From Myxococcota bacterium (GTDB lineage: Bacteria; Myxococcota_A; Bradymonadia; UBA7976; UBA1532), in NCBI GenBank assembly GCA_963169045.1, contig CAUJDF010000044.1, positions 310,001 through 374,000 of the forward strand: a DNA stretch of 64,000 nucleotides. Reading direction: 5' to 3'. The notes beneath the pieces were generated by a model. That model worked only from the letters and a program-made list of their open reading frames with translations. It made no database searches and had not been told where the DNA came from. A program made the translations under genes and the position numbers. Below are positions 12,552 through 61,300 of the stretch, one piece after another. Positions within the stretch are counted from its first letter, which is position 1. Every line of letters starts with the position of its first letter.

Positions 12552-12603
12552 AGTGTAGGCGCATCGTGGCAGCGCCGCGGCGGCTGTGTCAACCTGCGGC
12601 CCC

Positions 12604-13254: not shown

Positions 13255-14075
13255 TCGAAGACAACCAGTTGATGACCAGAATCTTTCCGGATCGACCGTT
13301 CCTGGTCGGGATGATCCACCTCGGCCCCCTGCCCGGCGCGCCGCGCTTCGGCGGCGATCTGGGCGCGGTGGTGGAGGCGGCGGCGGCGGACGCGCGGGCC
13401 CTGGCCGAGGGCGGGGCCGACGCCCTGCTCGTCGAGAACTTCCACGACGCGCCCTTCTTGAAGCAGGGGCTGGCCCCGGAGACCGTCGCGTCGCTGACCC
13501 GATGCGCCCTGGCGGTGCGCGCGGCGGCGCCCGGCCTGCCGCTCGGGATCAACGCGCTGCGGAACGACGCCCTCGCCGCGCTCGGGGTGGCGGTCGCGGT
13601 CGGCGCCACCTTCATCCGCGTCAACGTGCTGACCGGCGCCGTGGTCACCGACCAGGGCGTGATCGAAGGCGACGCCGCGGCCCTGTTGCGCCGGCGGGCG
13701 GCCCTGCGCGCCGAGGTCGCCATCCTCGCCGACGTCCAGGTGAAGCACGCGGCGCCGCTGGCGGCGCTCGACCCCGCACAGTGGGCACGCGACACCGCCT
13801 ACCGGGGCGGCGCCGACGCCCTGGTCGTCTCCGGCAGCGGCACCGGCGAGCCGACCTCGCCCGAGCGCGTGGCCGCCGTGCGCCGCGCCGTCCCCGACCG
13901 CCCGGTGCTCGTCGGCAGCGGCGCCACCGCCGGGACCGTCGCCGCGCTCGGCGCCGACGGCTACATCGTCGGCACGGCCCTGAAGGCGGCGGGGCGCGTG
14001 GACGCAGCCAGGGTCCGCGCCATCGCCGACGCCATCCGCGGGACGGGGCGCTACTCGGTCGGGTCGACGGTGTAG
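13251..14075 (+). CDS. BtpA/SgcQ-family TIM-barrel protein
   Basis: This protein has 274 residues (a second ATG seven codons in is possible). The hallmarks of the BtpA family are present: VGMIHLGPLPGAP at the N-terminus, GADALLVENFHDAPF, GINALRND, ATFIRVNVLTGAVVTDQG, ILADVQVKHAAPL, ADALVVSGSGTGEPT and a final GSGATAGTVAAL..YIVGTALK phosphate-site-like stretch. In cyanobacteria BtpA affects photosystem I; most homologues occur in non-phototrophs, where the fold suggests binding of a nucleoside or sugar phosphate. No photosynthesis gene is nearby. The gene is coupled to the metallopeptidase upstream, and its last 25 bases overlap the end of the pilin-like gene on the other strand. Confidence 0.9.
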   Translation: MIEDNQLMTRIFPDRPFLVGMIHLGPLPGAPRFGGDLGAVVEAAAADARALAEGGADALLVENFHDAPFLKQGLAPETVASLTRCALAVRAAAPGLPLGINALRNDALAALGVAVAVGATFIRVNVLTGAVVTDQGVIEGDAAALLRRRAALRAEVAILADVQVKHAAPLAALDPAQWARDTAYRGGADALVVSGSGTGEPTSPERVAAVRRAVPDRPVLVGSGATAGTVAALGADGYIVGTALKAAGRVDAARVRAIADAIRGTGRYSVGSTV

Positions 14076-36646: not shown

Positions 36647-39600
36647 ATGTCCCAGATGAGCGTCCCGCGGGACGCGTTCGACCTCGTCGGGCGCGAGCGA
36701 GAGCTGGCCCGTCTCGCCGAGCTCGCCGCCGCCGGGCGCGCCGAGGGCGGGCGCGCGCGCGCAGTCCTGGTGACCGGCGTGGAGGGCATCGGCAAGTCGC
36801 GCCTGCTGGCCGAGCTCAAACGCGGCCTGCGGGCCGACGGCGAGACGGTCTTCGAGGGTCGTTGCCACGTCACCGACCGGCGTCCCTACGCGGCGCTCGT
36901 CGACGTGCTGGGGGCCGCCGCGAGCCTCCTCGGAGATCTCGGCTATCGCACGCCGGCGCTGGAGCGCGCGCTCGGCCACCTCGCCGGGCTCCCCCCCGGG
37001 GGCGACCGCGACGCCGCCGGAGAGGACGCCCTCCTGCGCTTCTGCGAGTCCGTGCGCCTCGCGCTCCTCGAGGTGGCGCGCGTCCGCCCGCCGGTGGTCT
37101 TCCTCCACGATGTCCACCGCGCGGACTCGGCGACGGCGGGCCTGCTGCGCTACCTGCTCGAGAACCTGCTCGCCGATCCCGCGTTCGACTGGGCGCCCGA
37201 CGCCGTCGAGAGCGCGCCCGCGGCCGAGGGCTTCCGCGGTCTGCTCGTGCTCTCGTTCCGGGAGTCGCCGTCGACCCGCCCGTTCGTCGAGCTGGCGCGC
37301 GCCTCGGCCGTCGTGGAGCACCTGCCCCTCGAGCCGCTGGACGCGAGCGGCGTCGCCGCCTTCCTACAGCAGCGGCACGTCGTCGAGCGCCTCCTGGCGG
37401 CCTCCGGCGGCCTCCCGGCGGCCCTCGAGCAGATCATCGACTCCGTCCCGGCCCGCCCCGACGACCTCTGGACGCGCCGCCTCGAGGCCGTCCCGCGCGA
37501 GGCCGAGCCGCTGCTGGGCGCGCTGGCCGTCTATGAGCGCCCGGTCTCGCCCGAGCAGTTGGCCGACCTCGTCGGATCGAGCGTCGGCGTGCTCCCGCTG
37601 CTCAACGACCTCGTCGGACGCAAGGTCCTCGCCCGGACGCTGGATCGCGGCGCGGTGCGCTTCCGCTTCGTGCGCGAGGCGCTGCGGGAGACGTGGTGCG
37701 CGGGCCTCGACGCGGAGGCGCGAGGGGCGCTGCATCTGCGGGTCGCGCGACGCCTGGCCGAGGTCGGCGGCATGGGCGCCGAGCCGGAGGAGGTCGCCCA
37801 TCACTTCCTCGCCGCCGGGCGACCGCGGGAGGCCGTGCCGTTCGCGCTCGAGGCCGCCGAGCGACTGGAGCGCGCCTTCGCGTTCGCCCGCGCCGCCGAG
37901 CTCCTCGAACGCGTGGCCGCCGCCGCCGACGAGCGCGAGCGCGCGCACCTGCTCGACCGGCTCGCGGCCCTCTACCTGCTCGCCGGCGAGCGCGGCCGCG
38001 CCCGCGAGGTCCTGACGACGCTGGCGACGGAGTTCCCGGGACACCTCGAGCCGGCGGTGCTCGCCGAGCGGCGCGCCCGGGTGCACCTCGCCGCCGGCGA
38101 GCCCCCGGCTGCGCTCAGCCAGGTGGACGCGGGCCTCGCCGCCGAGCCCGCCCCGGCGCTGCGCCGCCGCCTGCAGGCCCTGGGCGCCGAGGCCGCCTAC
38201 GTTGCCGGCGATCTGGCCGACGCCGCCCGGCGCGCGGAGGGCGTCCCCGACAGCGCCGACGCCACCGGCGTCGCCCTGCGCAACACCCTCGGCAAGGTGC
38301 ACCTGGCCCGCGAGGCGCTCGACGAGGCCCAGGCGCTGTTCGAGCGCAACCTCGACGCCGGCGGCGATGCGCGCGCCCGCGCCCGGGCGCTGATCAACCT
38401 CGGCATCGTCCACCTCCAGCGCGGCGAGCCCGACGCCGCCGCCGGACGCTTCGAGCAGGCCCTCGCGCTGGCCGAGGCGGACGCCGACCTACGCAACCTC
38501 GCGATCGCACTCGGAAATCTGGCGGTGCTGCACCACCGCCGCCAGAACTACCGGCGCGCGCTCGAGTTCTACCACCGCTCGTCGGCGGCCTTCCGCAAGC
38601 TCGGCAACCAGGACCAGCTCACGGTCACGGTCCTCAACCTCGCCGACCTGTACCTGACGGTGGGCGACCGCGACCGGGCGCACCGCCTGGCCGACATCGC
38701 CGCCACTCACGTGCGCCGCGGCCGCTATCGCAGCCTCGAGGCCCAGGTGACGCTGCTCGAGGGCGATCTCGCGCGCACCGACGGCGATCCCGAGCGCGCC
38801 GCCGGCCATTACGCGGCCGCCATCCGCCTGATCGAACAGGGCGGGGGCAACAACCAGCGCCTCGGTCCCCTGCTCCTGAGCCAGGCCGAGATGCTCCTCG
38901 AGTCGGGCAGCCTCGCCGCCGCCGACGGCCTGCTGGACCGCGTGGCGACGCTGCCCGAGGCGAACCGCACCGACGCCGTCGAGGCGCGCCTCCGCCTCGT
39001 CCGCGGCGCGGTGCGCACGGCCGCCGACGACCCGGGCGCCGCGCGCGCCGAGCTCGAGGCCGCCGTCTCGCTCGCGCTGCAGAGCGGCGACCGCGAGGTG
39101 GCGTGGCAGGCGCTCGCCCGCCTGGGAGCGCTGCGCTGGGCGCTCGGCGACCGCGCGGGGACGCTCCAGGCGCTCGTCGAGGCCGTGGAGACCATCGAAC
39201 AGCTGGCCGCCGAGCTGCCGCGGGCCCTGCGCGCCGGTTACCGCGACACGCCGCGGCGCCGCGCCGTCCACGAGGCGCTGCGCCGCGTCCGCGCGGGCCT
39301 GCCGCCGGAGCGCCCCGCCGCCGAGCGGCGCGCCGACCGCGCCGCCCCGCGCATGCGCCGGCCCGAGGCCGACTGGCAGCCGCACTGGCGCGAGCGGTAC
39401 CCCGACATCATCGGCCGCTCCCCGAACCTGCTCCCGCTCTTCAAGACGCTGGACCGCGTCTCGGGCAGCGACAGCATGGTGCTCATCCGCGGCGAGAGCG
39501 GGACGGGCAAGGAGCTCGTCGCCCAGGCGCTCCACGGGCACGGGCCGCGGGCAGGGCGCCCCTTCGTCAAGGTGAACTGCGGCGCGTTCGTCGAGACGCT

Positions 39601-40588
39601 GCTGCTGAGCGAGCTGTTCGGTCACGAGAAGGGCGCGTTCACCGGGGCGCTCGCGCTGAAGCGTGGCCGCTTCGAGCTGGCGCACACCGGCACGATCTTC
39701 CTCGACGAGATCGGCGACATCTCGCCGAACACGCAGGTGGCGCTGCTGCGCGTGCTCCAGGAGGGCACGTTCGAGCGCGTCGGCGGCCAGGAGACGCTTC
39801 AGGTCGACGTGCGCGTGATCGCGGCGACCCACCGCAACCTCGAGGACATGGTCCGCCGCGGCGAGTTCCGCGCCGACCTGTACTACCGCCTGCGCGGCGT
39901 GGTCATCGAGCTGCCGCCGCTGCGCGACCGGCGCGAGGACATCCCGTTGCTCGTGCGCCACTTCCTGTCGCGCCGCCCGCATGCCGAGGGCCGCCCGCTC
40001 GTGTTCTCTCGCGAGGCCGTCGCGAGCCTGCTGCAGCACGACTGGCCCGGCAACATCCGCGAGCTCGAGAACGTCGTGCGGAGCGTGTCGCTGTTCGCGG
40101 ACGGCGCGGCGGTGGGCCTCGCGGAGCTGGCGGAGCTCGGCGACATCTTTCGCGCGCCCGCCGACGCGGCGCTGCTCGAGGCCGCCGAGCGTCTCTCGGA
40201 GCTCGACGGACCGCCCCCGCCTTCGCTCCCCCCGCCGGTCCCCTCGCCCGTCGATGGCGAAGACGAAGAGGTCGACGACGACGACGACGGCGCGGAAGAC
40301 GACGACGACGTGCCGTTCGTCTTCCGGCCGCGGAGTCCCGACGACGAGGACGGGCATCTGTTCCTCGGCGACGGGGACTGGCTCGACGCGCTGCTCCAGC
40401 AGGAGGGCGGGCTGGCCGAAGTGAAGAAGCGGATCGAATACGAGGCGATCGCCCGGGCGCTGCGCGCGACGAACGGGAACATCACCCAGGCGGCGAAACG
40501 GTTGGGGATGAAACGTCCTCGACTTTCCCAGATAATCCATGCGACACCTGCCCTGGGTGACCTGAAAGGCCGGGAGGTCAAGACATGA
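36647..40588 (+). CDS. ATPase-TPR-sigma54 activator-Fis giant regulator
   Basis: This 1313-residue protein joins four modules. Residues about 10-330 form an AAA_16-type ATPase with intact Walker A ([13 protein letters not shown]) and LHDVHRAD. About 370-900 is a helical TPR array. About 925-1165 is a sigma-54 activator AAA+ domain with GESGTGKE, the sigma-54 contact loop GAFTGA (near 996), FLDEIGDIS and the arginine fingers. An acidic linker with runs of Asp lies at about 1200-1225, and a Fis-type HTH at about 1265-1300 ([19 protein letters not shown]). Peptide or protein sensing by the N-terminal parts would drive sigma-54 transcription; this is inference. No receiver, GAF or PAS domain is present. 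The stop overlaps the next ATG (ATGA). Confidence 0.92.
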
Positions 40589-45116: not shown

Positions 45117-48100
45117 TCAGAGCGCGAGGGCCGCGAGCCGCGCCCGGCAGCGGGCGGCCTCGTCGGCGCGGCGGAGCGCCGTCCACACCTCGACGGCGCG
45201 TACGAAGAGCCGCTGCGCCCGCCGGCGGTCGCCCTCGGCGGCAAGCCCCTCGCCCAGCTCCTCGAGGATGCGCGGCCAGTCGGCGACGATGAGCGGCCGC
45301 GCCGCGTCGATGCGCAGCGCCGCCTGCAGGCGGTGCTCGCGGGCCGCCCGGTCGCGCCGCCGCTGCGCGAGGCGCGCGAGGAAGGCGTGCAGCACGCCGA
45401 CGCGGACGGGGTCGTCGAACTGCTCGAAGTGCGCGAGCGCGCGCTCGAACCAGGACTCGGCGGCGCCGGTGTCGCCCGCCTCGCCGGCCAGGCGGCCGAG
45501 CTGCGTGAAGCAGATGGCCAGCTGAAAGCGGTCGTCGAGCGCCTCGAAGACCTCGGCCGCCCGCTCGTAAACACGAGTCGTTTCAGGACGTTGCAGCAGC
45601 CTCAACGTGTCGCCCAGGCCGCGCAGGCTGCGACCCGCGCCCGCCTGGTCGCCCGCGGCCTCGCAGGCCTCGAAGGCCTGCCGGTACCGGACGGCGGCCT
45701 CCTCGAGGTGTCCCGCCTGGCGCAAGAGCTCGCCGAGTCGCCAGCTCGCCTGCGCCAGGAGCCGGTGGTCGGCGGTGCCGGCCGCCATCGCCGCGGCCTC
45801 CGAGAGCAGGCTGCGCGCCGCGTCGCGCTCGCCGGCGCGCGCCGCGAGCTCGCCGAGCGCGCGCTTTGCCGCCGCCTTGCCCCGCACGTCACCGGCGGCG
45901 GCGAACTCCGCCGCGGCCGCCGCGAAGAGGCGCCGCGCCTCGTCCAGCGCCCCCGCCTGCAGGGAGGCGCGTCCGCGCGCCACGTCGACCCGCGCCACTG
46001 CCGCCCGCTCGCCGCGCGCCTCGAGGAGCGCCCGCGCCTCGTCGAGGGCCCGGCCCGCCTCCTGCCACCGGCCCGCGGCCACCGACGCCTCGCCGCCGAG
46101 GCACAGCGCGAGCGCGAGGCGCGCCGTGTCGCCGGCCTCGCGGGCCCACTGCTGAAGGCGCGTCGCCATGCGCAGCGCGCGCTCGTGATCGCCGGCGTCG
46201 AGCGCCACCTCCGCCAGCCCCGACATGCCGTCGGCCCGCAGCGCCGCCGTGCGCGGTCCCGCCTCCGCCTCGCCGATCCAGCGGTCCGCCTCGAGGTAGA
46301 GGGCGGCGGCGGCGGCCTGCTGCCCGGCCTCGCGGGTCGTGCGGGCCGCCAGCAGGAGGCGCTCGACCGCGTCGTGCACCCGCCCGGCGGCGCGCAGGTG
46401 CCGGGCCACCTCCTCGGCCACGCGGTCCAGCCGCTCTCCGGCCCAGGCCAGCTTCGCCTCGGCCGCGCGCTCGTGCAGACGGGGCGTGTCGGCGCGGCCC
46501 GCCAGCTCCTCGAGCAGCGCCTGGCGCACCACCTCGTGGACGAACGCATAGGCGTCGCCGGCCTCGTCGAGGAGGACGCCGAGGCGCACGAGCCCCTCGA
46601 GGCCGGTCTCGAGCCGCACGGGATCGGCGCCGCCGGCGCGCTCGAGCGCCTCGATCAGATCGAACGGGAAGGCGCCGCCGAGCAGCGCGAGCCGCTCCGC
46701 CAGCCCTCGCCGGAAGGCGCCGTCCCCGCCGCCTTCGAGCGCCGCACCGAGACGTCGCCGGACCAGCTCGACGAGTGTGTGGGGCAGCGCGGCGTCGGCG
46801 CGCAGGTCGCCGAGGTACTGGAGCGCCTCGACCACGAAGAGGGGGTTCCCGCGGGACGCCTCCACGACGCGGCGGACGACGTCGCCCTCGATCGGGAGCA
46901 GCGCCCGCGCGAGGTTCGCGGTGCTCTCGTCGCTCATTCGGGGCACCTCGCGGGCCTCGATCGCGCCGTGGTGCCGCTCCAGCAGGCGGGCGAGCGTCCC
47001 GGCGGCGCTGCCGGCGGGCTGGGCGTCGCTGCGGCGCGTGGCCACGACGAGCACCCGCGCCGGGCGGGCCGTGAGGTGCGCGGCGAGGTGGTCGAGGAGG
47101 AGCAGCGCCTCGCCGTCCGCATGCTCGAGGTCGTCGAGCCAGACCAGCAGCGGCCGCCGGCCCGCGATGACGCGGGCGAGCTCCTCGACGACACGCACGA
47201 CGCGGCCGAGCGGTGGGCGTAGACCGCGACCCGGCCAGAGGTAGCCCGCGAGGGCGTCGCGATCGACGCGCTCCTCGGGATCGAGGTCGGTCAACGCGTG
47301 GTGCAGGGCCTCCGCGCCGGCGGGGCGCTGCCCGATGCCGAGCGCCTGCTGGATCATGCCGCGCAGACCGCGTGGGGCCACCCCCGTGCGGAACCGCGCG
47401 TCGATGGCCGTCATCCAGCCGCCCTCGGCCACCGTGCGGCCGAGCCACGCGCAGAGGCGACTCTTGCCGATGCCCGCCGGCCCGTCGAGCAGCACGAGGC
47501 GCGCCCCACCGCCGTTACAGACGGCGACGACCCGCTCCCAGAGCCACCGCTGAAGAGCGTCGCGGCCGACGAGCGGCGCCTCCTCGGGGCTCGGCCCGAG
47601 CGCGAATCCCTCGGCGGCCTCGACGACCGCGAGCTCCGCGACCGTGATCACGCTCGCGTCGCCGGCCTGGCGCTCCACGGGCGGCGGCGGCTGGTTGACC
47701 ACCGTCTCGGTCGGCTCGCCGTCGTCCCCGTCGAAGACCGCCGCCACGGCGCGGCGCATCGAGGCGGCGGAGGTGAAGCGGCGGCCAGGCTCCTTCTCGA
47801 GCGCCTGCCGGAGGACGCCCTCCATGCCCGCCGGCACCCGACGGCCGGGTAAGGGCAGGAACGCAGGGAGCGGCGCCGTGACGTGCTGGACGACGGTGTC
47901 CGTCGCCGTCTCGCCGCTGAATGGCGGCGCTCCGCACAGCAGCTCCCACAGGATGACGCCCACCGCGTAGAGGTCCGTCGCCGGCCCGACGTCGTGGTCG
48001 CCGGTCGCCTGCTCGGGCGCCATGTACGTCGGCGTGCCGAAGACGTCGCGGCGGGCGGCGGTGAGCTGGTCCTCGTCGTTCTCGACGCGGGCGAACCCGA

Positions 48101-48569
48101 AGTCGAGGATCTTCACCACGTCCTCACCGTCGGCGCCTGAAGTCACAAAAATATGATGTGGCTTCACATCACGATGAACCACGCCGCGGGCGTGGGCGTA
48201 AGCGAGCGCGCCGAGCACCTGCTCGACCAGTGCCACCAGGCGCGGTGCCCCGACCTGCGGGTCGCGGCCGAGGTCGGCGAGCGTCGGTCCGGCGACGCGC
48301 TCCATGGCGAGGAACGGCGCCCCCTGCTCGTCGACGCCGACGTCGTACAGGCGCACGATGTGCGGGTGCTCGAGACGGGCCACCGCGCGGGCCTCGCGAC
48401 GCAGTCGCCGCCGCAGGCGCGCGTCCTGGGCGACCTCGGCGCGGAGCCGCTTGAGCGCCACCGCCCGTCCGGCGAGGACGTCGTGGGCGCTCCACACGTC
48501 GCCGGTCGAGCCGCGGCCGATGAGGTGGTTGAGGCGGTACCGACCGCCGACGAGGTCGGGGCCGCTCAC
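45117..48569 (-). CDS. Ser/Thr kinase-ATPase-TPR protein with altered kinase catalytic loop
   Basis: This protein has about 1150 residues. The GTG overlaps the upstream stop as GTGA and gives SGPDLVGGRYRLNHLIGRG, a normal kinase opening. The kinase domain (about 8-275) has the Lys (VALKRL), the Glu (RREARAV) and LDFGFA, but the catalytic loop reads HRDVKPHH: the Mg-binding Asn is His. A STAND-type ATPase follows with intact Walker A (GPAGIGKSRL, near 365) and LVWLDDLEHAD, then a TPR array to the C-terminus. The layout resembles PknK-type sensor proteins. The catalytic-loop codons are unusually AT-rich. It is cotranscribed with a full paralogue upstream. Confidence 0.9.
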   Translation of the reverse strand: MSGPDLVGGRYRLNHLIGRGSTGDVWSAHDVLAGRAVALKRLRAEVAQDARLRRRLRREARAVARLEHPHIVRLYDVGVDEQGAPFLAMERVAGPTLADLGRDPQVGAPRLVALVEQVLGALAYAHARGVVHRDVKPHHIFVTSGADGEDVVKILDFGFARVENDEDQLTAARRDVFGTPTYMAPEQATGDHDVGPATDLYAVGVILWELLCGAPPFSGETATDTVVQHVTAPLPAFLPLPGRRVPAGMEGVLRQALEKEPGRRFTSAASMRRAVAAVFDGDDGEPTETVVNQPPPPVERQAGDASVITVAELAVVEAAEGFALGPSPEEAPLVGRDALQRWLWERVVAVCNGGGARLVLLDGPAGIGKSRLCAWLGRTVAEGGWMTAIDARFRTGVAPRGLRGMIQQALGIGQRPAGAEALHHALTDLDPEERVDRDALAGYLWPGRGLRPPLGRVVRVVEELARVIAGRRPLLVWLDDLEHADGEALLLLDHLAAHLTARPARVLVVATRRSDAQPAGSAAGTLARLLERHHGAIEAREVPRMSDESTANLARALLPIEGDVVRRVVEASRGNPLFVVEALQYLGDLRADAALPHTLVELVRRRLGAALEGGGDGAFRRGLAERLALLGGAFPFDLIEALERAGGADPVRLETGLEGLVRLGVLLDEAGDAYAFVHEVVRQALLEELAGRADTPRLHERAAEAKLAWAGERLDRVAEEVARHLRAAGRVHDAVERLLLAARTTREAGQQAAAAALYLEADRWIGEAEAGPRTAALRADGMSGLAEVALDAGDHERALRMATRLQQWAREAGDTARLALALCLGGEASVAAGRWQEAGRALDEARALLEARGERAAVARVDVARGRASLQAGALDEARRLFAAAAAEFAAAGDVRGKAAAKRALGELAARAGERDAARSLLSEAAAMAAGTADHRLLAQASWRLGELLRQAGHLEEAAVRYRQAFEACEAAGDQAGAGRSLRGLGDTLRLLQRPETTRVYERAAEVFEALDDRFQLAICFTQLGRLAGEAGDTGAAESWFERALAHFEQFDDPVRVGVLHAFLARLAQRRRDRAAREHRLQAALRIDAARPLIVADWPRILEELGEGLAAEGDRRRAQRLFVRAVEVWTALRRADEAARCRARLAALAL

Positions 48570-51500
48570 GGCACGAGACCGTGCCGGCTCAGCTTGTCCT
48601 CGACGCGCGCGGCGGCGGCGAGGGCGTTCGCGTCGCGGAAAATCTGGCTCGCGCGGGCGTAGAGCGCGCGGACGCGAGGCGAGCGCCCCCGCAGGACCTC
48701 GACGTCGGCGACGCCCTCGAGCGCACGGGCGAACTCGAGCTCGGCGATGGGGTGCCGCGAGTCGAGCTCGAGCGCCGCCTGAAGCTCGGCTGCCGACGTG
48801 TCGGCGTCGCCGGCGGCGGCCGCCACCCATGCCAGACCGGCCCGCACGATGGCCTCGCGCTGGCGATCGCCGGACTCGACCGCGGGCGGCAGCGCCTCGC
48901 CGAAGCTGTGCCAGGCGCGCTCGAGATCGCCGCGCTCCGCCGCGTTCACCCCGAGCTCGCCGCGCGCCATCGCCGCGTGCGTCGCGTCGCCGATGTCGGC
49001 GAAGCCGTCGCCCGCCAGGCGGAGGCACTCCTCGCCCTCCGGCCAGCGCCCGGCGGCGAGGTGCAGACGACCGAGCGCGAACTGGCAGCGGGCCAGGCCC
49101 GCGCGGTCTCCCAAGGCGCCGTACCCGTTCGCGGCGGCGGAGAGGTTGGCGAGGGCGCGCGCGGGATCGCCGAGGCGCCGCCAGCTCTCGCCGAGCAGCC
49201 ACTGGCACTGCGTGGCGCCGGCGCGATCGCCACCCGCGAGGAAGCGCGCCCGGGCGGCCTCGAGGTGCTGGCTCGCCTCCGCGTAGTCGCCGCGGCGGAG
49301 CGCGAGGTCGCCGAGCCCGCGTGAGGCACGCGCGCTCCCGGCCGCGTCGTCGACGGCGTCCATCGCCTCGCGCGCCCGCTGGAAGAGGTTGCGGGCCACG
49401 TCGAGCTGCCCGCGGCCGCGCTCGACCATCGCCTGCCCGAGGAGGCAGCGGGCCACGCCCGGCCCGTGGCCGGCGCGTTCGAAGGCCTCGCGCGCGCGGG
49501 CATAACCGGCCGACGCCTTCGCGGAATCGTTGCCGGCCCGCATCCCGGTGCGGAGCAGATCGCTCACGAGCAACAGGGCCCGCCCCTCGAGGAGCGGCTC
49601 GCCGGCGTGCCGCGCCCAGTCACACACGCGCGAGCCCAGCGCGAGCGAGCGCTGCGCATTGCCGTGCTTCAGCTCGAGCTCCCCCAGGTCGAGCCAGAGC
49701 ATCGCCCGCTGTCGCTCGGCGGCCTGCCCTGACAGGGTGGCGAGGAGCCGGTCGGCGGTCTCGAGCAGCGCCCGCGCGCGGTCGAACTGCTCCTCGCGAT
49801 GCGCGTGCCCGGCCGCTTCGACAAAGAACCGCGCGGCCTCAGCGGCCATCCCCGCAGCGCGGAAGTGCTCGGCGATCTGCACGGCCACCGCCAACCCGCG
49901 GACGGGCGCGTGGACGATCTTCGCGTCGGCGGCGAGCCGGTGCAGCCGCGGTGCGATCCCGCGCGCCGCGACGTCGGCGAGGAGCGCCTCGCCGAGCGGA
50001 CCGTGGGCAATGTGTAGCCGGTCGACGCGAGACCCGCGGTTCTCGACCAGCAAGTGCGCGCGGATGAGCGACTCGATGGCGGCCTCGACGCGGGCCTCCT
50101 GTCCGGCGGCGCGCGCCAGGAACGCCGAGAGCAGGTCATAGTCGAACGAGGGTCCGAGCACGACCGCATGGTCGAGGACCGTGGCCGCGAACTCGGCGTC
50201 GGGCAGGTGCGCGAGGGTGGCGCGCGTGCGCCGCAGGACGGTCTCCGTCAGGGTCGCCGGCCAGCGGGACGGATCGGTGTCGCCCAGGCGCACCACGCCT
50301 CCGCCATCGACCAGATCGCCGGTCTGACGCAGCAGCAATGCGAGCTCGCGCGCGAAGAACGGATTGCCCTGGACGCGGCGCGCGATCGCCTCCGCGGCGG
50401 CGTCGTCCACCGGCGCCACCGTGCGCAGCAGCGCGACGACATCGTCGTCGGCCAGCGGCTCGAGCACTCGACTCGACACGACGCCGTCGTCGGCGACGAG
50501 CGACTGGAGCTGCCGCGCGAGCTCCGGCGTGGGCAGCCCGTGCTCGTCCGTCTCATACGTCGTGAGCACCAGGATCGGAAACGGACGGCGACGCAGGGCC
50601 CGGGCCAGAAAGCGCAACAGGCCGAACGTCTCCGGCGCCGCGTGCTCGAGCCCTTCGAGCGTCAGCAGGACGGGCCGATCCGCTGCCGCGACGCGCAGCA
50701 CTTCGCTCACGCGGTCGAAGAGGACGTCGCCGCGAATGCGGCTCGGCTCCGAGAGGCCCTCGTTCGCGGCGATCTCCGGCCGCAGGTAGGAAAGCAGCGC
50801 CGAGAAGCGCGACGCGTCCACCGGCGCGTCCCGCGCGCCGTTCCAGCGACCGAGGAGCGCGCGGACGCGACCTTCCGCCTCGCGGCGGTCCTCGGGCAGG
50901 TGCCCGAAGAGCTCGTCGAGCGCGCCCCGCAGTCCCTCCTCGCCGTCGTCGCCGGCGCCGTGGACGCCGCCGACGCAGAGCATCCAGCCGCCCTCGGCCA
51001 TCTGGTCGCGGAGCCAGCGCGTCACACGGTTGCGGCCCATGCCCGCTCGCGCGCCCAGGAGCGCGACGCGCCCCTGGCCGCCCTCGACGACCTCCTGAAC
51101 GAGGCTCCAGAGCCAGATGAGATCGGCGTCGCGACCCACGAGCGGCGACGCGGCGTCCTCGATGGCCCGCTCCGCCGCCGCCGGCGCCTCGGCCTCGACG
51201 ACCAGCGGCGCCAGCACCTCGCCGACGGCGGTGTCGTCGTAGCCCGAGATCAGTGGCCCGGCGGCGTGGCCGATGGTGCGATCGGCGTCGGGCAGCTCGT
51301 CGAGGGCGTCGTCGTCGAAACCGGTGCGCTGAAGGAACGGGCTGAGGGCCCGGCGCATGTCGGCTGCCGTCTGGAAGCGGTCGCCCGGATCCTTCTCGAG
51401 CGCCCGCAATACGACGTCCGTCAGGCCGAGCGGCAACTCGAGCCCGGGCCGGGGCACGAGCGGCGGCACCGCCTCCATCAGGTGCTTGAGCGCGACGGCC

Positions 51501-52165
51501 ATCCCGTGGGCGCCGGTGAATGGCGGCTTGCCCGACAGGAACTCGAACAGGACGACGCCGATGCCGTAAAGGTCCGTCGGCGGGCCGATGTTCCCCTTGC
51601 CCGTCGCCTGCTCCGGCGCCATGTAGAGCGGCGTGCCGAAGGCGTCGCCGTGCGCCTGCGTCAGGCGCGGATCCTGATCGTCCTCGACACGCGCGAACCC
51701 GAAGTCGAGGAGCTTGGTGCCCGGCACGGCGCCGTCCAGCTCGACGATGATGTTCTCTGGCTTGACGTCACGGTGCACGACGCCGCGCGCGTGGGCGAAG
51801 GCAAGCGCCGAGAGCGTCTGGTCCATGACGATCAGAAGCCGTTGTAGATCGAGACCTTTCGCGCGCAGACCCGACAGCGACTGGCCGGTGAGCAGCTCCA
51901 TCACCAGGTAGGGCGCGCCGGACGGGTCTTCGCCGTACGACAAGAGTCGCACGATGTGAGGGTGGACGAGGCGGCCGACCGCGCGCGCCTCGCGGCGGAA
52001 CCGGCGCCGAACGCGGGCGTCGCGGGCGAACTCCGGGCGCAGGACCTTGACGGCCACTGGCGTCTGGGTACGCAGGTCGGAGGCGCGATAGACCCGGCCG
52101 ATGCCGCCCTCGCCGATGGGCTCTTCGATGCGGAAGCGGTCGGCGACGACCAGACCTGACTGCAT
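48566..52165 (-). CDS. Ser/Thr kinase-ATPase-TPR protein with altered P-loop
   Basis: This protein has about 1199 residues from the ATG after CGGGA; a GTG 63 bases upstream is less likely. The kinase domain (about 8-275) is complete: IGEGGIGRVY, VAVKVL, Glu in RREARAV, HRDVKPENI, LDFGFA and GTPLYMAPEQ. The following ATPase module has LLGARAGMGRNRV where the Walker A Lys-Ser should be, so nucleotide binding there is doubtful. A long TPR region fills the C-terminal half. No membrane helix is present. It is the first gene of the kinase pair, 86 bases from the acyl-carrier-like gene, which is upstream and on the same strand. Confidence 0.9.
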   Translation of the reverse strand: MQSGLVVADRFRIEEPIGEGGIGRVYRASDLRTQTPVAVKVLRPEFARDARVRRRFRREARAVGRLVHPHIVRLLSYGEDPSGAPYLVMELLTGQSLSGLRAKGLDLQRLLIVMDQTLSALAFAHARGVVHRDVKPENIIVELDGAVPGTKLLDFGFARVEDDQDPRLTQAHGDAFGTPLYMAPEQATGKGNIGPPTDLYGIGVVLFEFLSGKPPFTGAHGMAVALKHLMEAVPPLVPRPGLELPLGLTDVVLRALEKDPGDRFQTAADMRRALSPFLQRTGFDDDALDELPDADRTIGHAAGPLISGYDDTAVGEVLAPLVVEAEAPAAAERAIEDAASPLVGRDADLIWLWSLVQEVVEGGQGRVALLGARAGMGRNRVTRWLRDQMAEGGWMLCVGGVHGAGDDGEEGLRGALDELFGHLPEDRREAEGRVRALLGRWNGARDAPVDASRFSALLSYLRPEIAANEGLSEPSRIRGDVLFDRVSEVLRVAAADRPVLLTLEGLEHAAPETFGLLRFLARALRRRPFPILVLTTYETDEHGLPTPELARQLQSLVADDGVVSSRVLEPLADDDVVALLRTVAPVDDAAAEAIARRVQGNPFFARELALLLRQTGDLVDGGGVVRLGDTDPSRWPATLTETVLRRTRATLAHLPDAEFAATVLDHAVVLGPSFDYDLLSAFLARAAGQEARVEAAIESLIRAHLLVENRGSRVDRLHIAHGPLGEALLADVAARGIAPRLHRLAADAKIVHAPVRGLAVAVQIAEHFRAAGMAAEAARFFVEAAGHAHREEQFDRARALLETADRLLATLSGQAAERQRAMLWLDLGELELKHGNAQRSLALGSRVCDWARHAGEPLLEGRALLLVSDLLRTGMRAGNDSAKASAGYARAREAFERAGHGPGVARCLLGQAMVERGRGQLDVARNLFQRAREAMDAVDDAAGSARASRGLGDLALRRGDYAEASQHLEAARARFLAGGDRAGATQCQWLLGESWRRLGDPARALANLSAAANGYGALGDRAGLARCQFALGRLHLAAGRWPEGEECLRLAGDGFADIGDATHAAMARGELGVNAAERGDLERAWHSFGEALPPAVESGDRQREAIVRAGLAWVAAAAGDADTSAAELQAALELDSRHPIAELEFARALEGVADVEVLRGRSPRVRALYARASQIFRDANALAAAARVEDKLSRHGLVP

Positions 52166-52251: not shown

Positions 52252-52503
52252 TCAGGCCGCCGGGCGATGCCGCTGTTCGATGAAGCCCACGAGGCCGCCC
52301 AGCGAGCGGATGGAGCGGTACTCGTCCGGAGGCGCGTCGACGCCGAACTCACGCTGGATGAAAGAGACAAGGTCGACCAGGTCGAGCGTGTCGAGCATCA
52401 AGGTACCACGCAGGGTGGCATCGGGCGTGACGAGCGTCTCGTCCCGGGAGAAGTCGTCCATCAGGATGCGCTTCAGCCGCGTGAAGATGGTCTCGCGCGT
52501 CAT
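52252..52503 (-). CDS. Acyl carrier-like protein with Thr at the prosthetic-group position
   Basis: This 83-residue protein starts at an ATG preceded by GAGG; a longer in-frame start would add an Arg/Pro-rich leader. The size, four-helix pattern and charge are those of acyl carrier proteins, with LRGTLMLDTLDLVDLVSFIQREFGV in place of the usual xxLDSLDLVELV. The residue that should carry 4'-phosphopantetheine is Thr39 (ACG), not Ser. It may be a non-acylated adaptor or an atypical carrier. It is upstream of the kinase pair and divergent from the alpha/beta hydrolase. Confidence 0.85.
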   Translation of the reverse strand: MTRETIFTRLKRILMDDFSRDETLVTPDATLRGTLMLDTLDLVDLVSFIQREFGVDAPPDEYRSIRSLGGLVGFIEQRHRPAA

Positions 52504-53712: not shown

Positions 53713-56700
53713 TTACTCGTCGGCGGTGTCGACGGCGGCGCGAAGCAGGCGGACGGCGTTGACGACTTCCATGTACTCGCCGAGCCGGCGGTCGGCGTTG
53801 TGGAAGGCATTCAGCGCCTCTTCGGACGGGTTGCGGACGTTCACCGCGTCCCACGCCGGCTGCCACTGGTCGGCGACGAACTCATTGATGCGGCCGAGCA
53901 GGTCGAAGGCGATCGACCGCCCGTCGCCCGTCTGCGCTGCCCGGTAGAGCGCCTTGCTGCGCGGGTGCTCGAACTCGATGACGTCGACGCCGTCGGGATA
54001 CGCCCGGTCTTCTTCGGTGCCAGCCTCGGTGATCGTCAGGTACTCGTTGAAGTCCATCTCCGAGTCGAAGCTCGACGTGTTGTAGAGGGACATCAGTACG
54101 AGGCCCTGCCACAGCAGGTTGTAGCCCATGGGCGAGTGGATGCGCGGGCGGCCGGCCATGCCGTCCGGATCCTGGCCGAACGCCGCCGCGTCGACGAGCG
54201 CGCGCGGCACGATCTGGTCCTGGTCGTCGAGGAGACCGGCGAACGCGTCACCGGTGCCGTCGTCGAGGACCGAGCCCAGGAGGTCGCCCATCAGCTTCAC
54301 CAGCTCCGGACGGAACAGGCGGTAGAAGCCGATGGAGAAGCGGCGCGAGTCACCCAGGTTCGCCACCTGGAAGAACGACGTCGACGTATCGGTGAGGTAC
54401 TGCAGGATGTTGATCTTGTCGAAGTACCAGCCCACGTAGTCGATCTGGTAGTAGTACTCGTCGTTGAAGCGCATGAACTCGTCGCGACCCGTCCCGATCG
54501 GGATGTCGAGCGCGGCGGGGTGCCCGCTGGGCGTCGCCTGGCCGAGCTCGCAGCGCTCCCGCAGATCCTCGCCGGCCTCACCGTACGGCACGTACAGGTT
54601 GCGGGTCGTGTCGAGGCAGTGGCGGCCGGGCTCCGGCGTGCCGAGCACCTGGTTGATGAAGTTCAGGCCGACGCGCGACGCGCGGTACAGGTCGTTGCGC
54701 AGGCCGATGTCGTAGTTCTGGAAGAAGTAGTAGTACTTGAAGGGATAGGTCAGGAACTCGCCCAGGCGATCCTGACGCGTGAAGTATCCGTTGAGGAACG
54801 AGTACTCGTTGCGGCCGCGCCGGAACGCGTTGAACGCGTAGTAGTTCCAGTAGTTCTGGATCGCCGACTCGACCACCTCGGTGTGCGTCGCGCCCTCGTC
54901 GTACACGCGGCAGGTCAGGTTGCCCTGGAACGTGTCGAGGCAGTAGCCGAACGGCACCTCGCGGCTGATCCAGTACGGCGAGTTCTCGGCGTCGGGATCG
55001 GCGTTGCTGATGAGCAGCTCGGCGTTCTTCAGGGCACCCTGGCGACGTGCCTCGATCTGGTCCTCGACGCGGCGGTCGACGCGCTTGGTCAGGTTCTCGA
55101 CGCCGCCGATCGCTGCCGGCAGGGCCTTGTAGCCGTCGAGGAACACGACGCTGCCGAGGTCCTCCTTCAGGGGCACCGTCTCGTCGAACTCCTCGACGAC
55201 ACCGCCGTACACGAACTTGATCGTGGCGTGGTCGTACTTGCCGAGGCCGTGCAGATCGGAGTTGAAGCGGCTGCCGTACTCCATGATCGACGAGTAGCGG
55301 TACTCGGTCGCCTTCGCGGCGTTGCGGTCGGGCTCCTGGTCGTCCTCGGGGAACTCCTCGAAGATCTTCCAGAACTCGTCGCCGTAGTTGATGGCGTCGA
55401 ACGAGGCCTCGAAGTTGTGGGTCATGCCGACGGTGTGGCCGATCTCGTGCAGCATGACGCCGCGGTAGATGGCCTTGCGCAGGCGCTGATACACGAACTC
55501 GGGGTCGAGGCCCTTCAGCTCGAGCGCGGTACCGATGACCGAATCGTCGATGAACTCGGCCAGATAGACGCAACCCTTGTGCTTGTGGCTGCCCTCGAAG
55601 TGCTTGAAGCGGTCTCGCAGCCGCTCACGCATCGCCTTGCGGTCGAGGAGGAGGTCCATCGCCAGCTCGTCGGTCTGCTCGGTGACCTCGTCCCCCGGGC
55701 GCCAGCCGTTCATGCGGCGGGCCACCTCGAGGGTGTCGTTGTCGACGAGCATCGCCTGGATGCGCGGATCCTTCTTGACCTTCTCGAGACGCGCGCGCCC
55801 CTCGTCGAGCGGCCGGCCCATGAGGTCGGCAACCGGATCGCGCGGATCCGGGTCCTGCAGGCGGCGGCGCATGTTGCGGATGATCGCCGCCTTGTCGGCC
55901 TTGCCGTTCGGCAGCTGGAAGGCGCCGTAGACCCGCTCGAGATCGAACGTGCCGAGCCGCTCGTTCATCGCCCGGTGCTGCTCCGGACCCACCTTCAGCT
56001 CGTTCTCCATGTCGACCACGGTCTTGCCGCTGTCGAGCCACTGCTGGTAGCTGGCGCCGCTGATCACGTCGTTGAGGTCGAGGTCCTCGTTCATCGCGCG
56101 CACGATGTCGGCCGCCGCGCGGGCGTACGAGTCCACGCCGGCGCCATACACGTGGGCGTTGCCGCTGATGATGTGGCCGTTCTCGGGGTCGGCGGAGGAG
56201 GGGCCGAAGCCCAGCGGGCCAGAAGGCTGCTCTTCGTGCACCCAGTCGATGAAGCTGAAGCGCACGTCGCCGATCTGCTGCCAGGCGAACTTCTCGTCGA
56301 GATCGCGCTCGCGGCTGAAGTGGCGCAGCCCGGCGCAGACCTTCTCGAGGTTGCCCGCCGTCAGCTCGCCGCCGCCGCGCGCCTCCTCGGCCACGTCGGC
56401 CATCTCGGGGTTGCGCGCGAGGTAGGCCTCGACGCCGCGAATCGAGCAGCTGTTGGCGCGGACCTGGAACATCGCCTCGGGGCCATAGCCGTCGAGCTTC
56501 TCTTCCTCGTCCCCGTCGATCAGGTACAGCGGATGCTGCTCGTTGCTCTCCGTCCAGCTGCGGACCTGCTCGCGGACCCACTGCGTCTTGATGTAGCGAG
56601 CGCAGCCGCGATCCAGGTTCGCCTCGAGGAGCGCATCGGCGTCGGCCGAAGCCGCCGGGCACTTCTCGACGCCGGCGACGTCCTTGGAGACGCGCGCCAG

Positions 56701-58314
56701 TTCGCGCTGCACGTCGGCGAGCTCATCGGAGGCGTTGACGCGGCGCAGCGCCACGTCAGCCAGGCGCGCGCGGTCCGCCGCGCTCGTCGCGTCGCTGAGG
56801 CGGCCCACCTGCGCGGCGAGGTCGGTCAGCTCGCTGCGCAGCTGGCCCCGCTTCGTCTCGAGCTCCGTCTTGCGAGCGCTCAGCTTCGACGAGGCCTGCT
56901 TCGCGCGGCCCAGCTCGTCCTTCACCCACGAGCGCTCGACGGCGTCGAGCTTCGTGGCGGCGGCCGCCATCTCGGTGAAGGCAGCGTCCCAGTCCTGGCC
57001 GATGCGGACCGTGGTCTCGACCAGATCCTCGGGGTAGTCGACGTTGACGTAGTAGACGACCGGACGCGGCAACCGCGTCTCGACGGTCACGTCCTTGCCG
57101 TTGATGCGGACGGTGTTGCTGACCTTGCCGTCCCAGGTGTTGTGGATGTTGGCGTAGTACTCGCGCAGCTCGTCGCGACCGCCGCCGGCGCGGCGATCCC
57201 AGAGATGCCGCTCCGTGCGGAAGACACCGAAGCGGTCCGCCTGCTGGTACCGGACGTCGCTGCAGTCGTTGCGGGCGACGAAGTAGCCGGGCGCGAACAC
57301 CTCGTCGAGGAAGGAGATGAACTCCGGCGTGCAGGCGAACTCGATCGCCTGGCCGCTGCGCATCGTCAGCGTGACCGAACGAATCGGACCGCCGTCGACG
57401 AAGCGGCCGTCTCCGTTCCGGTCCTTCGTGGCGTCGGCGAGGGCCGCGCAGGCGCGCTTGAGGTTCTGATAGCCCAGCGGGCGGTTCCAGAGCGCCTTGT
57501 CGACGACCGGCTGCAGGTCCTTGTTCTTGGCGAGGAAGTCGCGGACCTCGGTCATCGAGCACTGACCGGCGTAGGACGGAACATTGTCGAGGTAGGTCCG
57601 CGGCTCGAACTTGGCGGCCTCGTCGGCGTCGATCTTCGCGAACGACAGCCGCAGGTTCACCTCGGACGTTCCGCAGTTGTAGTCGCCGTACAGGTAGAAG
57701 CAGGTCTCCTGGTCGGAGATCGCGCCGATCTGCGTGACCTGGATGTAATCGTCGGTCAGCTGGAGCTGGTCCGGGTGGAACACCTCGGTCTCGGGCACGT
57801 GATAGTTGCCCGTCAGGCCGATGTCGGCGGGACCCCACATCGGCCCGGTGTTCCAGTTCACGCGGATGTAATCGCGCTCGTACCAGGGGCGGTCGCTCTG
57901 GTTCTCGCCGATGACGTTGTTCTCTTCACCGGTGCTCGCGTTGTAGCCCTTCTTGATGTCGAAGTGCGCCGAGATCGCGAACGCCGCCACCGGGTCGCCC
58001 TTGTAGACGGCGCCCGGCTGCGTGTCGTCCTCGTCGAGCCCGAGAATCGCCTCGTGCGTCCGGTACGCGTAGAGGGTGTCCTCGGTGATCTCCCAGCGCA
58101 CCTTCTCGAGGCTGCCCTCGAGGCCGACGAACGCCGCCCCCTGCAGCGGCGACGCGTCGACGATCGTCTGGCGGTAGTACCACTCGCCTTCGAACAACGC
58201 CTTGCTGACGTAGCCCGGCTGGACCGTGTTGACCTCCTCGACCGGCTCGGCGCAGCCCGCGATCAGGCCCACCGCCGCGAAGGACAACACCGTCGACTGA
58301 ATCGAAGCCCTCAT
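53713..58314 (-). CDS. Giant lipoprotein metzincin-like metalloprotease with coiled-coil insertion
   Basis: This protein has about 1533 residues. The ATG after GAGGGAACGGA gives MRASIQSTVLSFAAVGLIAGC (lipid Cys21). The N-terminal beta-rich region starts EGEWYYRQTIVDAS. The zinc site is MLHEIGHTVGMTHNF near residue 958, an exact HExxHxxGxxH metzincin motif, and SSIMEYGSRFNSD provides the Met-turn. The arrangement resembles the bacterial met-zincin (DUF4953-like) proteins. Compared with its upstream paralogue it has an extra coiled-coil at about 450-570. A long C-terminal region has repeated Y/F-rich helices. Substrates unknown; action at the cell surface or in the periplasm is likely. Confidence 0.9.
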   Translation of the reverse strand: MRASIQSTVLSFAAVGLIAGCAEPVEEVNTVQPGYVSKALFEGEWYYRQTIVDASPLQGAAFVGLEGSLEKVRWEITEDTLYAYRTHEAILGLDEDDTQPGAVYKGDPVAAFAISAHFDIKKGYNASTGEENNVIGENQSDRPWYERDYIRVNWNTGPMWGPADIGLTGNYHVPETEVFHPDQLQLTDDYIQVTQIGAISDQETCFYLYGDYNCGTSEVNLRLSFAKIDADEAAKFEPRTYLDNVPSYAGQCSMTEVRDFLAKNKDLQPVVDKALWNRPLGYQNLKRACAALADATKDRNGDGRFVDGGPIRSVTLTMRSGQAIEFACTPEFISFLDEVFAPGYFVARNDCSDVRYQQADRFGVFRTERHLWDRRAGGGRDELREYYANIHNTWDGKVSNTVRINGKDVTVETRLPRPVVYYVNVDYPEDLVETTVRIGQDWDAAFTEMAAAATKLDAVERSWVKDELGRAKQASSKLSARKTELETKRGQLRSELTDLAAQVGRLSDATSAADRARLADVALRRVNASDELADVQRELARVSKDVAGVEKCPAASADADALLEANLDRGCARYIKTQWVREQVRSWTESNEQHPLYLIDGDEEEKLDGYGPEAMFQVRANSCSIRGVEAYLARNPEMADVAEEARGGGELTAGNLEKVCAGLRHFSRERDLDEKFAWQQIGDVRFSFIDWVHEEQPSGPLGFGPSSADPENGHIISGNAHVYGAGVDSYARAAADIVRAMNEDLDLNDVISGASYQQWLDSGKTVVDMENELKVGPEQHRAMNERLGTFDLERVYGAFQLPNGKADKAAIIRNMRRRLQDPDPRDPVADLMGRPLDEGRARLEKVKKDPRIQAMLVDNDTLEVARRMNGWRPGDEVTEQTDELAMDLLLDRKAMRERLRDRFKHFEGSHKHKGCVYLAEFIDDSVIGTALELKGLDPEFVYQRLRKAIYRGVMLHEIGHTVGMTHNFEASFDAINYGDEFWKIFEEFPEDDQEPDRNAAKATEYRYSSIMEYGSRFNSDLHGLGKYDHATIKFVYGGVVEEFDETVPLKEDLGSVVFLDGYKALPAAIGGVENLTKRVDRRVEDQIEARRQGALKNAELLISNADPDAENSPYWISREVPFGYCLDTFQGNLTCRVYDEGATHTEVVESAIQNYWNYYAFNAFRRGRNEYSFLNGYFTRQDRLGEFLTYPFKYYYFFQNYDIGLRNDLYRASRVGLNFINQVLGTPEPGRHCLDTTRNLYVPYGEAGEDLRERCELGQATPSGHPAALDIPIGTGRDEFMRFNDEYYYQIDYVGWYFDKINILQYLTDTSTSFFQVANLGDSRRFSIGFYRLFRPELVKLMGDLLGSVLDDGTGDAFAGLLDDQDQIVPRALVDAAAFGQDPDGMAGRPRIHSPMGYNLLWQGLVLMSLYNTSSFDSEMDFNEYLTITEAGTEEDRAYPDGVDVIEFEHPRSKALYRAAQTGDGRSIAFDLLGRINEFVADQWQPAWDAVNVRNPSEEALNAFHNADRRLGEYMEVVNAVRLLRAAVDTADE

Positions 58315-58397
58315 TCCGTTCCCTCGCGTGGTGGCCCGGCGATCCGGACCGACGGCCGACTCGTTCGCCTGCATCTTCTGGTTCCGGTCGCCGCGCA

Positions 58398-61300
58398 TCA
58401 CAGCCGCCCCCAGTCGAAGAGGGAGCGCAGCGAGCGCATGTCCTGCATGAGCTCGACGAAGTCCTGCAGGCGCTGGTCCGCGTCCTCGAACTGCTGGCGG
58501 AACTCCTCCGCCCGCGGGCTCTCGAGGTTGCGCTGCCAGGCGTCGTACGCCGGCTGCCACTCTTCGCGGACGTAGTCGTTCGCTTCCTTGATGATGTCGT
58601 AGGCGAGCGAGCGGCCGTCGTTCGTCTGGCACGCGTTGAAGGTGGCCCCCGTCGTCGGGTTCGTGAACGAGATGGCCTGGGCGGACGCACCACAGAGGCG
58701 GTCGTCACCGGAGCCCTCTTCGCCGATCTGCAGGTAGTCGATGAAGTCCAGCTGGCGGTCGTACATCGTCGTGCCGAAGGCCGACGCATAGAGCATCGTG
58801 TTGTAGAGCAGGTTGTAGGGCACCGGCGCATAGATGCGGGGTCGGGTGTTCGGCGGACGCTGCCCGCCCTTTCCGAACGTCTCCGGATCGATCATCAGGC
58901 TCGGCACGACCTTGTTCTGGCGATCGAGGTAGTAGGCGAAGTTCGAGTTCGACCGCCCGGTGCCGAGGTAGCCCTGCATCAGGTCCTTCGCGAGGTTCAC
59001 CAGCTCGTCACGGAAGCCGTTGTAGTAGCTGACGGTGAACTGGCGATCGTCGGTCTGATCGGAGATGCGGAAGAAGCTCGTGCTCGGGTCGAACAGTTGG
59101 AAGATGAACGTGGTCTTGTCGTAGAAGGTGCCGATGTAATCGATCTTGTAGACGTAGTCGTCGTTGAAGTCGATGTACATGTCGCGGCCCTGCCCGACGG
59201 GCAGCTCGACGGACTGACACGTCTTCTGCGTGTCGAAGTCGAAGAACTGGGACGGGTAGAAGACGTTCGACCGCGTGTCGAGGCAGTAGCGACCCGGCTG
59301 GGGCGAGCCGAGCACCTGATTCATGAAGTTGATGCCCGTGAGCGACGCCTCGAGCAGGTCGTCACGCAGGTGCGTCGGATAGGAATCGAAGAAGTAGTAG
59401 TACTTCCAGGGGTAGACGAGGTACTCGGCGAGGCGATCCTGGCGGCTGAAGAAGCCGTTGATGAACTCGACCTCGTTGCGGCCGCGCCGATACGAGTTGA
59501 AGACGTAGTAGTTCCAGTAGCGCTGGATGGCCGACTTCACCGCCTCGGCGTGGGTGGCGCCTTCGTCCCAGGTGCGGCAGCGCAGGTCGCCGTTGAAGCC
59601 GTCGGCGCAGTACTGGTAGGGCACCGTGCGGTCGATCCAGAAGTCGCTCGCCGGCCGGTTCGGGTTCTGCGCGTACTTCTGCGCATTGTCGAGCACGCCC
59701 TTACGACGCTTCTCCATCTGATCTTCGATGGGAACGTTCTTGCGCTTCTGCAGGTTGGCGGCACCGCCGAGGCGATCGGGCAGCTCGCGATAGTCACCGA
59801 AATCGATCTGGAAGCGCAGGTCGCCCGGCACGCGGACGTTGTCGTCGAAGACCTCGACGCGGTCGCCGTACACGAACTTGATCGCCGCGTAGTCGTACTT
59901 GCCGAGGCCGGCGAAGTCCGAGTTGAAGCGGCTGCCGTAGTCCATGATCGAGCCGTAGCGGTAGTGCGTGATCTTGGCCTCGTTGCGGGCCCGCTCGTCG
60001 TCCGCGTTGTCGCCCGGGAAGCGCTCGTGGATGTCCCAGAACTCGTCGTGGTAGTTGAGCGCGTCGAACGACGACTGGAAGTTGTGCGTCAGACCGACGG
60101 TGTGGCCGATCTCGTGCAGCGTCACGCCGCGGTAGATCTCCCGGCGAAGGGCCTGGTAGACCTCCTCCGGATCGCGGTCCTTCATCTCGAGCGCCAGACC
60201 GATGACCGAATCGTCGAGGAAGTCGGCCATGTAGACGCAGTTGTCGACGAGGAGACGCTCTCGGGCGCGGACCCACTTCGAGTAGGCGGTCGGATTGACC
60301 GCCATGTTGGTCGCGAACTCGACCATCTTCGGCGGCATCTCCTCCCCCTCGTGCCAGCCGAACAGCGGGCCGACGACGGCGAGGATCTCGGGGGTGAGCA
60401 ACTTGGCGCGGAACTCGGGGTCCTGCTTGAGCTGCTCGAGCCGCTGGCGCCCGGGGTTGGTCGGCGCCTGCAGCGCGAAGCGCGCGGGATCGCTCGCCTT
60501 CGGCTGCTGAAGACGCTTCTGCATGTGGCGCATCATCTCGGCCGGGTCGATCTTGCCGTTCTTCATGAAGCGGTCGCGGCCGGGCACCTGGTCGGTGCCG
60601 ATGCGGCGCGACATCTCGCGCTTCATTTCCGCGGTCGGCTTCATGTCCATGTCGGCGACGTTGGTGCCGCTGTTCTGGATCCAGTTCAGGTAGGTGTCGC
60701 CATCGAGGATGCCGTCGAGCGTGAACTCGCCGTTCAGCACGCGGATGATGTCCGCGGCGCTGCGGGCGTAGGAGTCGAGCGCCGCGCCGTAGATGTATGC
60801 GTTGCCCGAGATGATGTGGCCGTTCTCCGGGTCGGCGGACGACGGGCCGTAGCCGAGGGGACCGCCCGGGCTGTTCTCGTTGACCCAGTAGAGGTGGCTG
60901 AAGCGCAGATCGCCGATCTGCTGCCAATCGAACTTGTCGTCGAGGCCGCGCTCGCGCGATTCGAAGACGAGGCCCGCGCACACGCGCTCGAGATGACCCG
61001 GCAGGAGCTCGTCGGGGTTGGTCGTCTCGGCGACCTCCTCGAGGACCTCGGCCATGTCCGGGTTGGCGCGGACGTAGCTTCGAATGCCCGGGATCGAGCA
61101 GTTGTTGCGGCGGATCTGGTAGAGGGCCTCGGGGCCGTAGTCGTCGGCGAGGAACGTCCCCCGCTGGCCGCTCGCCTCGAAGTCGGCGCGCAGCTGACTC
61201 TCGATGGCGCTGCGCGACTTGCCGGTGGCCTCGACGGCAGCCGTCATGAAGGCCTCGTTCCAGTCGCGGCCGAGCTTGACCGTCTCCTCGATCAGGTCCT

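Follow-up and report, generated by a model that had tools for sequence, protein, structure and literature searches.

The window analysed here, a 64-kb stretch of DNA within contig C44 of a 9.0-Mb assembly of 109 contigs, carries two STAND Ser/Thr kinases of the PknK type in tandem, a pair conserved in eight genomes of a single bacterial family. The two proteins differ at their ATPase sites, which are eroded in the upstream member (U) and largely kept in the downstream member (D), and on balance we favor a reading in which U is a working kinase mounted on a pseudo-ATPase domain, any ATP switch comes from D, and the two join as a heteromer. An apparent loss of a catalytic residue from the D kinase, on which a reciprocal division of activities between the two proteins had been proposed, is a one-genome anomaly and not a conserved trait.

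U and D share one layout by profile matches, with an N-terminal Hanks-type kinase followed by an AAA_16 NTPase and then TPRs (Table 1). The TPR_12 profile is matched in both proteins alike and the repeats are visible in the AF2 models of both. These models are used here to judge the kinase and TPR folds alone, as the structure-search lists obtained from them were filled by kinase-domain matches; when the NTPase region of D was searched with phmmer against proteins of solved structure, no match was returned. The catalytic loop of U is HRDVKPEN (residues 131-138), and the catalytic kinase residues are invariant across eight U proteins. In D, the corresponding loop is HRDVKPHH (residues 132-139), with all other kinase motifs intact. 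These letters, together with the U sequence GARAGMGRN (residues 371-379) and the D sequence GPAGIGKS, agree with those given in the preliminary description of this DNA, and the stop of U and the start of D share the four nucleotides GTGA, as it had also stated, in the junction sequence ...CCGTGAGCGG.... The order kinase, AAA_16, repeats is that of PknK of Mycobacterium tuberculosis, which likewise places a Ser/Thr kinase on a STAND NTPase and to which we liken U and D by architecture, not sequence. Both PMC4381067 and PMC9045387 place PknK among the STAND kinases; the present case differs in that there are two adjacent paralogues, the first of which is without intact Walker motifs. Kinase domains abound in the genome, where U as a query gave about 120 matches, most of them containing kinase domains. 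Two other assignments were rejected. The TOMM kinase/cyclase fusion protein (TIGR03903) has a related kinase domain, but the scores of 201 and 217 bits fall well below the cut-off of 706, and the best PADLOC matches to anti-phage kinase systems (PD-T4-6, MADS) stop at residues 218-318, covering the kinase domain only.

Table 1. Features of the tandem kinase genes, their proteins, and the AT-rich patch, by position in the window
Feature	Position	Strand	Detail
U (upstream gene)	48566..52165	-	1199 aa, kinase-AAA_16-TPR; 8 other family genomes have a full-length relative
U protein kinase domain	51374..52132	-	PF00069 1.7e-43; complete, HRDVKPEN + DFG; AF2 model vs PknB Z 28
U degenerate Walker A, ARAGMGRN	51029..51052	-	Strict Walker A in 0/9 U proteins
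U AAA_16 NTPase domain (predicted pseudo-ATPase)	50567..51145	-	PF13191 32.9 bits, cut-off 32.6
U lost Walker B, LLTLEGLEH	50642..50668	-	Walker B in 0/9 U proteins
U TPR array	48626..49531	-	PF13424 1.7e-19; helical repeats in AF2 model
D (downstream gene)	45117..48569	-	1150 aa, kinase-AAA_16-TPR; GTG start overlapping U stop
D protein kinase domain	47766..48539	-	PF00069 3.8e-45; DFG present; AF2 model vs PknB Z 29
AT-rich patch, D codons 131-144	48138..48179	-	42 bp; holds HRDVKPHH (48153-48176)
Terminator-like hairpin in patch	48153..48172	-	8-bp stem, 4-nt loop, ATTTTTG T-run tail
D AAA_16 NTPase domain	47043..47576	-	PF13191 51.2 bits
D intact Walker A, GPAGIGKS	47460..47483	-	Residues 363-370
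D intact Walker B, LLVWLDDLEH	47121..47150	-	In 7/7 D proteins having an NTPase

The description of U and D as coupled paralogues is strengthened by the comparison of genomes, as the tandem pair recurs in seven further members of the family (relatives labeled G002, G004, G005, G007, G008, G009, and G012; C and L numbers below denote contigs and loci). This family is known from metagenome-assembled genomes only, all of them fragmented, and belongs to a class that is probably Bradymonadia. Among the genomes searched outside the family, only single homologues were seen and no pair, and this class-level comparison included three single-contig genomes of 5.0, 5.8, and 8.0 Mb; three complete genomes in the range of 5.0-8.0 Mb have been reported for Bradymonabacteria (PMC7460792), and it is on this agreement that the probable class assignment rests. 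A maximum-likelihood tree places the U proteins in one clade (support 100/100) and groups D with a third paralogue of the family (98/100). The surroundings of the pair are also shared to varying extents. The order ClpB, outer-membrane barrel, D, U, alpha/beta hydrolase is found both here and in G007, and G002 has the same order from ClpB through U, while the pair is flanked by ClpB and the hydrolase in G009 and by the barrel and the hydrolase in G005. A different arrangement occurs in G006, where the C terminus of U (L057, G006:C237, 4697-9976) is joined to another Ser/Thr kinase domain, distinct from its own, in an open frame of 1759 aa, and no separate gene for D lies alongside.

The loss of the U ATPase site that had been proposed from this one sequence is borne out across the family and extends to Walker B, as seen in a motif table of 52 rows covering U, D, the third paralogues, and class-level homologues. 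Aligned with its relatives, the Walker A region of U has substitutions at the first Gly, the Lys, and the Ser/Thr, and at the Walker B site, U reads LTLEGLEH, without the acids, where D reads VWLDDLEH. Two of the nine U proteins (G005, G012) retain GKS despite having no strict Walker A. The codons of the U P-loop are of ordinary composition, and its wording is mostly common to the U of G008 (ARAGMGKN). Neither Walker A nor Walker B is damaged in any class-level homologue from outside the family. Nei-Gojobori estimates of dN/dS from two genus pairs were 0.26-0.28 for the NTPase domain of U, compared with 0.14-0.35 in D; these figures are approximate, given the partial saturation of synonymous sites in the more distantly related pair. 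The degenerate U domain is thus still constrained, and, judged from these substitution rates, it is held under purifying selection even though its ATPase activity has presumably been lost. One alternative is that the erosion in U is plain decay following duplication, with no dedicated partner role. Three third paralogues (L058, L059, and L160, at G009:C629, G002:C432, and G007:C200, respectively) likewise lack Walker B and have a broken P-loop, reading GKH or GRT, and ATPase-site loss is therefore frequent in the lineage. However, the purifying selection on the U NTPase domain and the persistence of full-length U beside D in seven other genomes speak against decay, which we regard as unlikely, albeit the best of the alternatives to the conserved pair outlined above.

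For D, Walker B is more uniform than Walker A, which is strict in four of the seven D proteins that have an NTPase; in the remaining three (G005, G008, G012), the Lys is replaced by Arg, so that some pairs have a D that is no clean ATPase. In the D of G007 (L054, G007:C35, 3428-5164), the NTPase core is missing altogether, leaving the kinase with apparent winged-helix and TPR remnants. Since the pair persists there, an ATP switch driven by D cannot be general, and the motifs of these relatives indicate that such a role of D would not be universal, the P-loop being altered in some pairs and absent from that of G007. We also considered a rule of one canonical P-loop per pair, scored by GK[ST] only. 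By this measure, D has the motif and U does not in the genome analysed here, G002, G004, and G009, with the reverse in G005 and G012, but neither protein has a canonical P-loop in G008, and the rule was dropped. The split would correspond to a hypergeometric p of about 0.14 (3/21, seven pairs, before relatedness), and the rule is consequently not claimed.

The kinase site of D presents a very different picture from the ATPase site of U, in that the substitution is found in one genome alone. The catalytic Asn is present in all U, D, and single homologues examined except the D protein described here, which is also the sole exception among 21 distinct kinase catalytic loops of its own genome, and Asn occupies this position in all 126 loops from other genomes. 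The D proteins of G002, G004, and G009 combine a full kinase site with strict Walker A and Walker B motifs, and that of G007 has kept its kinase, Asn included, while losing its NTPase core, the opposite of what would be predicted if D were retained as the ATPase. Thus, of the complementary loss originally proposed, the degenerate ATPase of U stands family-wide, whereas the loss of the D kinase does not: none of the other pairs shows the same split of active sites. The motifs of the orthologues rule out reciprocal loss as a conserved trait, and the Asn in all other D proteins likewise excludes D as a pseudokinase by inherited residue loss.

The sequence encoding HRDVKPHH is itself unusual. It lies in a run of 14 codons (GTT CAT CGT GAT GTG AAG CCA CAT CAT ATT TTT GTG ACT TCA) in which G or C is found at just 3 of the 14 third positions, compared with 93% for the D gene overall. 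No other 45-bp stretch of the window is as poor in GC as 48138-48182 (40%), and among 91,829 14-codon windows inside high-GC3 coding sequence of this genome (464 kb), the patch ranks as the most extreme. A codon bias general to catalytic loops was rejected as an explanation, as other kinase loops have G or C at 10-15 of 15 third positions. No AT-rich loop was found in 18 other kinases of the same genome or in the D and U orthologues, and no second copy of the patch was found in the genome. Searches for a donor gave no near match at up to three mismatches in 379 genomes of the phylum, this one included, and none in a viral collection. The patch leaves the frame and the expected flanking residues intact, with VHRDVKP before and IFVT after the two His residues, the latter as in G005, and it therefore has the appearance of homologous but AT-richer sequence. 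It looks like either a chimeric consensus from metagenome assembly or a micro-conversion from an AT-richer homologue, which are about equally good explanations. A second, milder AT-rich patch (5/14 GC3) occurs at 13251-13292 on the reverse strand, IRKDSGHQLVVFDH, within a high-GC3 open frame (10872-13748) that contains an amidohydrolase domain. The patch in D is also a caution: when a catalytic site appears lost in a single metagenome assembly, the change may sit in a short foreign-looking stretch, something that codon composition reveals at once.

The patch could alternatively be a real DNA element, either a terminator-like hairpin with a T-run or the product of a template switch at an inverted repeat, with the codon changes as a by-product. 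A hairpin of the type listed in Table 1 would be expected 0.3 times per 1.5 kb, and perfect 7-bp inverted arms are present, the 3' arm of which contains the codons for the two His residues. On the other hand, the stem is weak, with three G-C pairs and a folding z of only -1.3 to -1.9, 7-bp inverted repeats are common locally (7 in 500 bp), and the AT-rich loop is missing from all orthologues, making a functional element or template switch of this kind improbable. We give still less credence to a real reciprocal loss in this species, whereby U would be the sole working kinase and D the sole working ATPase of an obligate pair. The letters of this genome fit it, as do the conserved tandem arrangement and the family-wide loss of the U ATPase site, but Asn is found in every other D protein, even the one from G007 without an NTPase core, and no patch of the window is richer in AT than the one that holds the His. 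Because the D relatives keep their Asn and the His sits in this foreign-looking patch, a reciprocal division of labor is not conserved. The chance is slim that the D protein of this species is a CASK-like atypical kinase with an altered metal site that still phosphorylates. D does resemble pseudokinases and atypical kinases, CASK among them, in having a changed metal-binding residue in an otherwise intact fold (PMC4718504), and CASK, which is active without Mg though its canonical metal ligands are absent, offers a precedent (PMC4718504); the HRD, beta3 Lys, DFG, and other kinase motifs of D are all intact. Nevertheless, it is the DFG Asp that CASK lacks and D retains (PMC4718504), and the change in D is restricted to a single genome, common to no relative, and lies in an AT-rich patch of doubtful sequence.

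Several neighboring genes of the window may be recorded alongside the pair. Just upstream of U, at 52252-52503 on the reverse strand, is a small acyl-carrier-like protein (PF00550, E 1e-6) with DTLD at the expected phosphopantetheine serine site (DSL), and it may therefore not be modifiable in the usual way. Also on the reverse strand (53713-62459), two very large proteins stand side by side, about 1600 and 1353 aa long, with matches to Met-zincin-like metalloproteases (DUF4953). On the forward strand, 36647-40588 encodes a 1313-aa protein with AAA_16, TPRs, and a sigma-54 activator domain, a STAND-like regulator near the pair.

In the conserved STAND kinase pair that we favor, U and D would assemble via their NTPase and TPR parts, with the TPRs sensing a signal. 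STAND proteins are described as switching from an ADP-bound resting form that opens on a signal to an ATP form that assembles, with hydrolysis resetting the system (PMC4381067). The D NTPase would be the source of whatever nucleotide switch remains, and the U pseudo-ATPase may serve as a fixed structural, hydrolysis-dead partner carrying an active kinase. Brought together in this manner, the kinases would phosphorylate each other, with phosphorylation presumably also directed to targets; the other family members have a complete site in both kinases. An arrangement with comparable features is known from plant paired NLRs (RGA4/RGA5, RRS1/RPS4), in which function is abolished by P-loop mutation of one member but not of the other (PMC9528088), so that one STAND member can do without its P-loop. 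There, too, two STAND proteins lie side by side and do not depend equally on the P-loop, and the likeness concerns arrangement only, with no sequence kinship claimed, as the plant proteins have other output domains and belong to another kingdom. It is highly doubtful that the present pair is a full bacterial counterpart of such sensor/helper systems, in which the two would work only as a mixed assembly, U would be permanently hydrolysis-dead throughout the family, D would here be an atypical or dead kinase, and the roles would be fully divided. PknK-type STAND kinases are usually described as single proteins, and what this family adds is a tandem pair with a conserved member predicted to be a pseudo-ATPase. 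If the favored reading is true, the pair would offer a simple setting in bacteria for studying the control of an active STAND subunit by an inactive one, a problem currently worked on mostly in plant immune receptor pairs.
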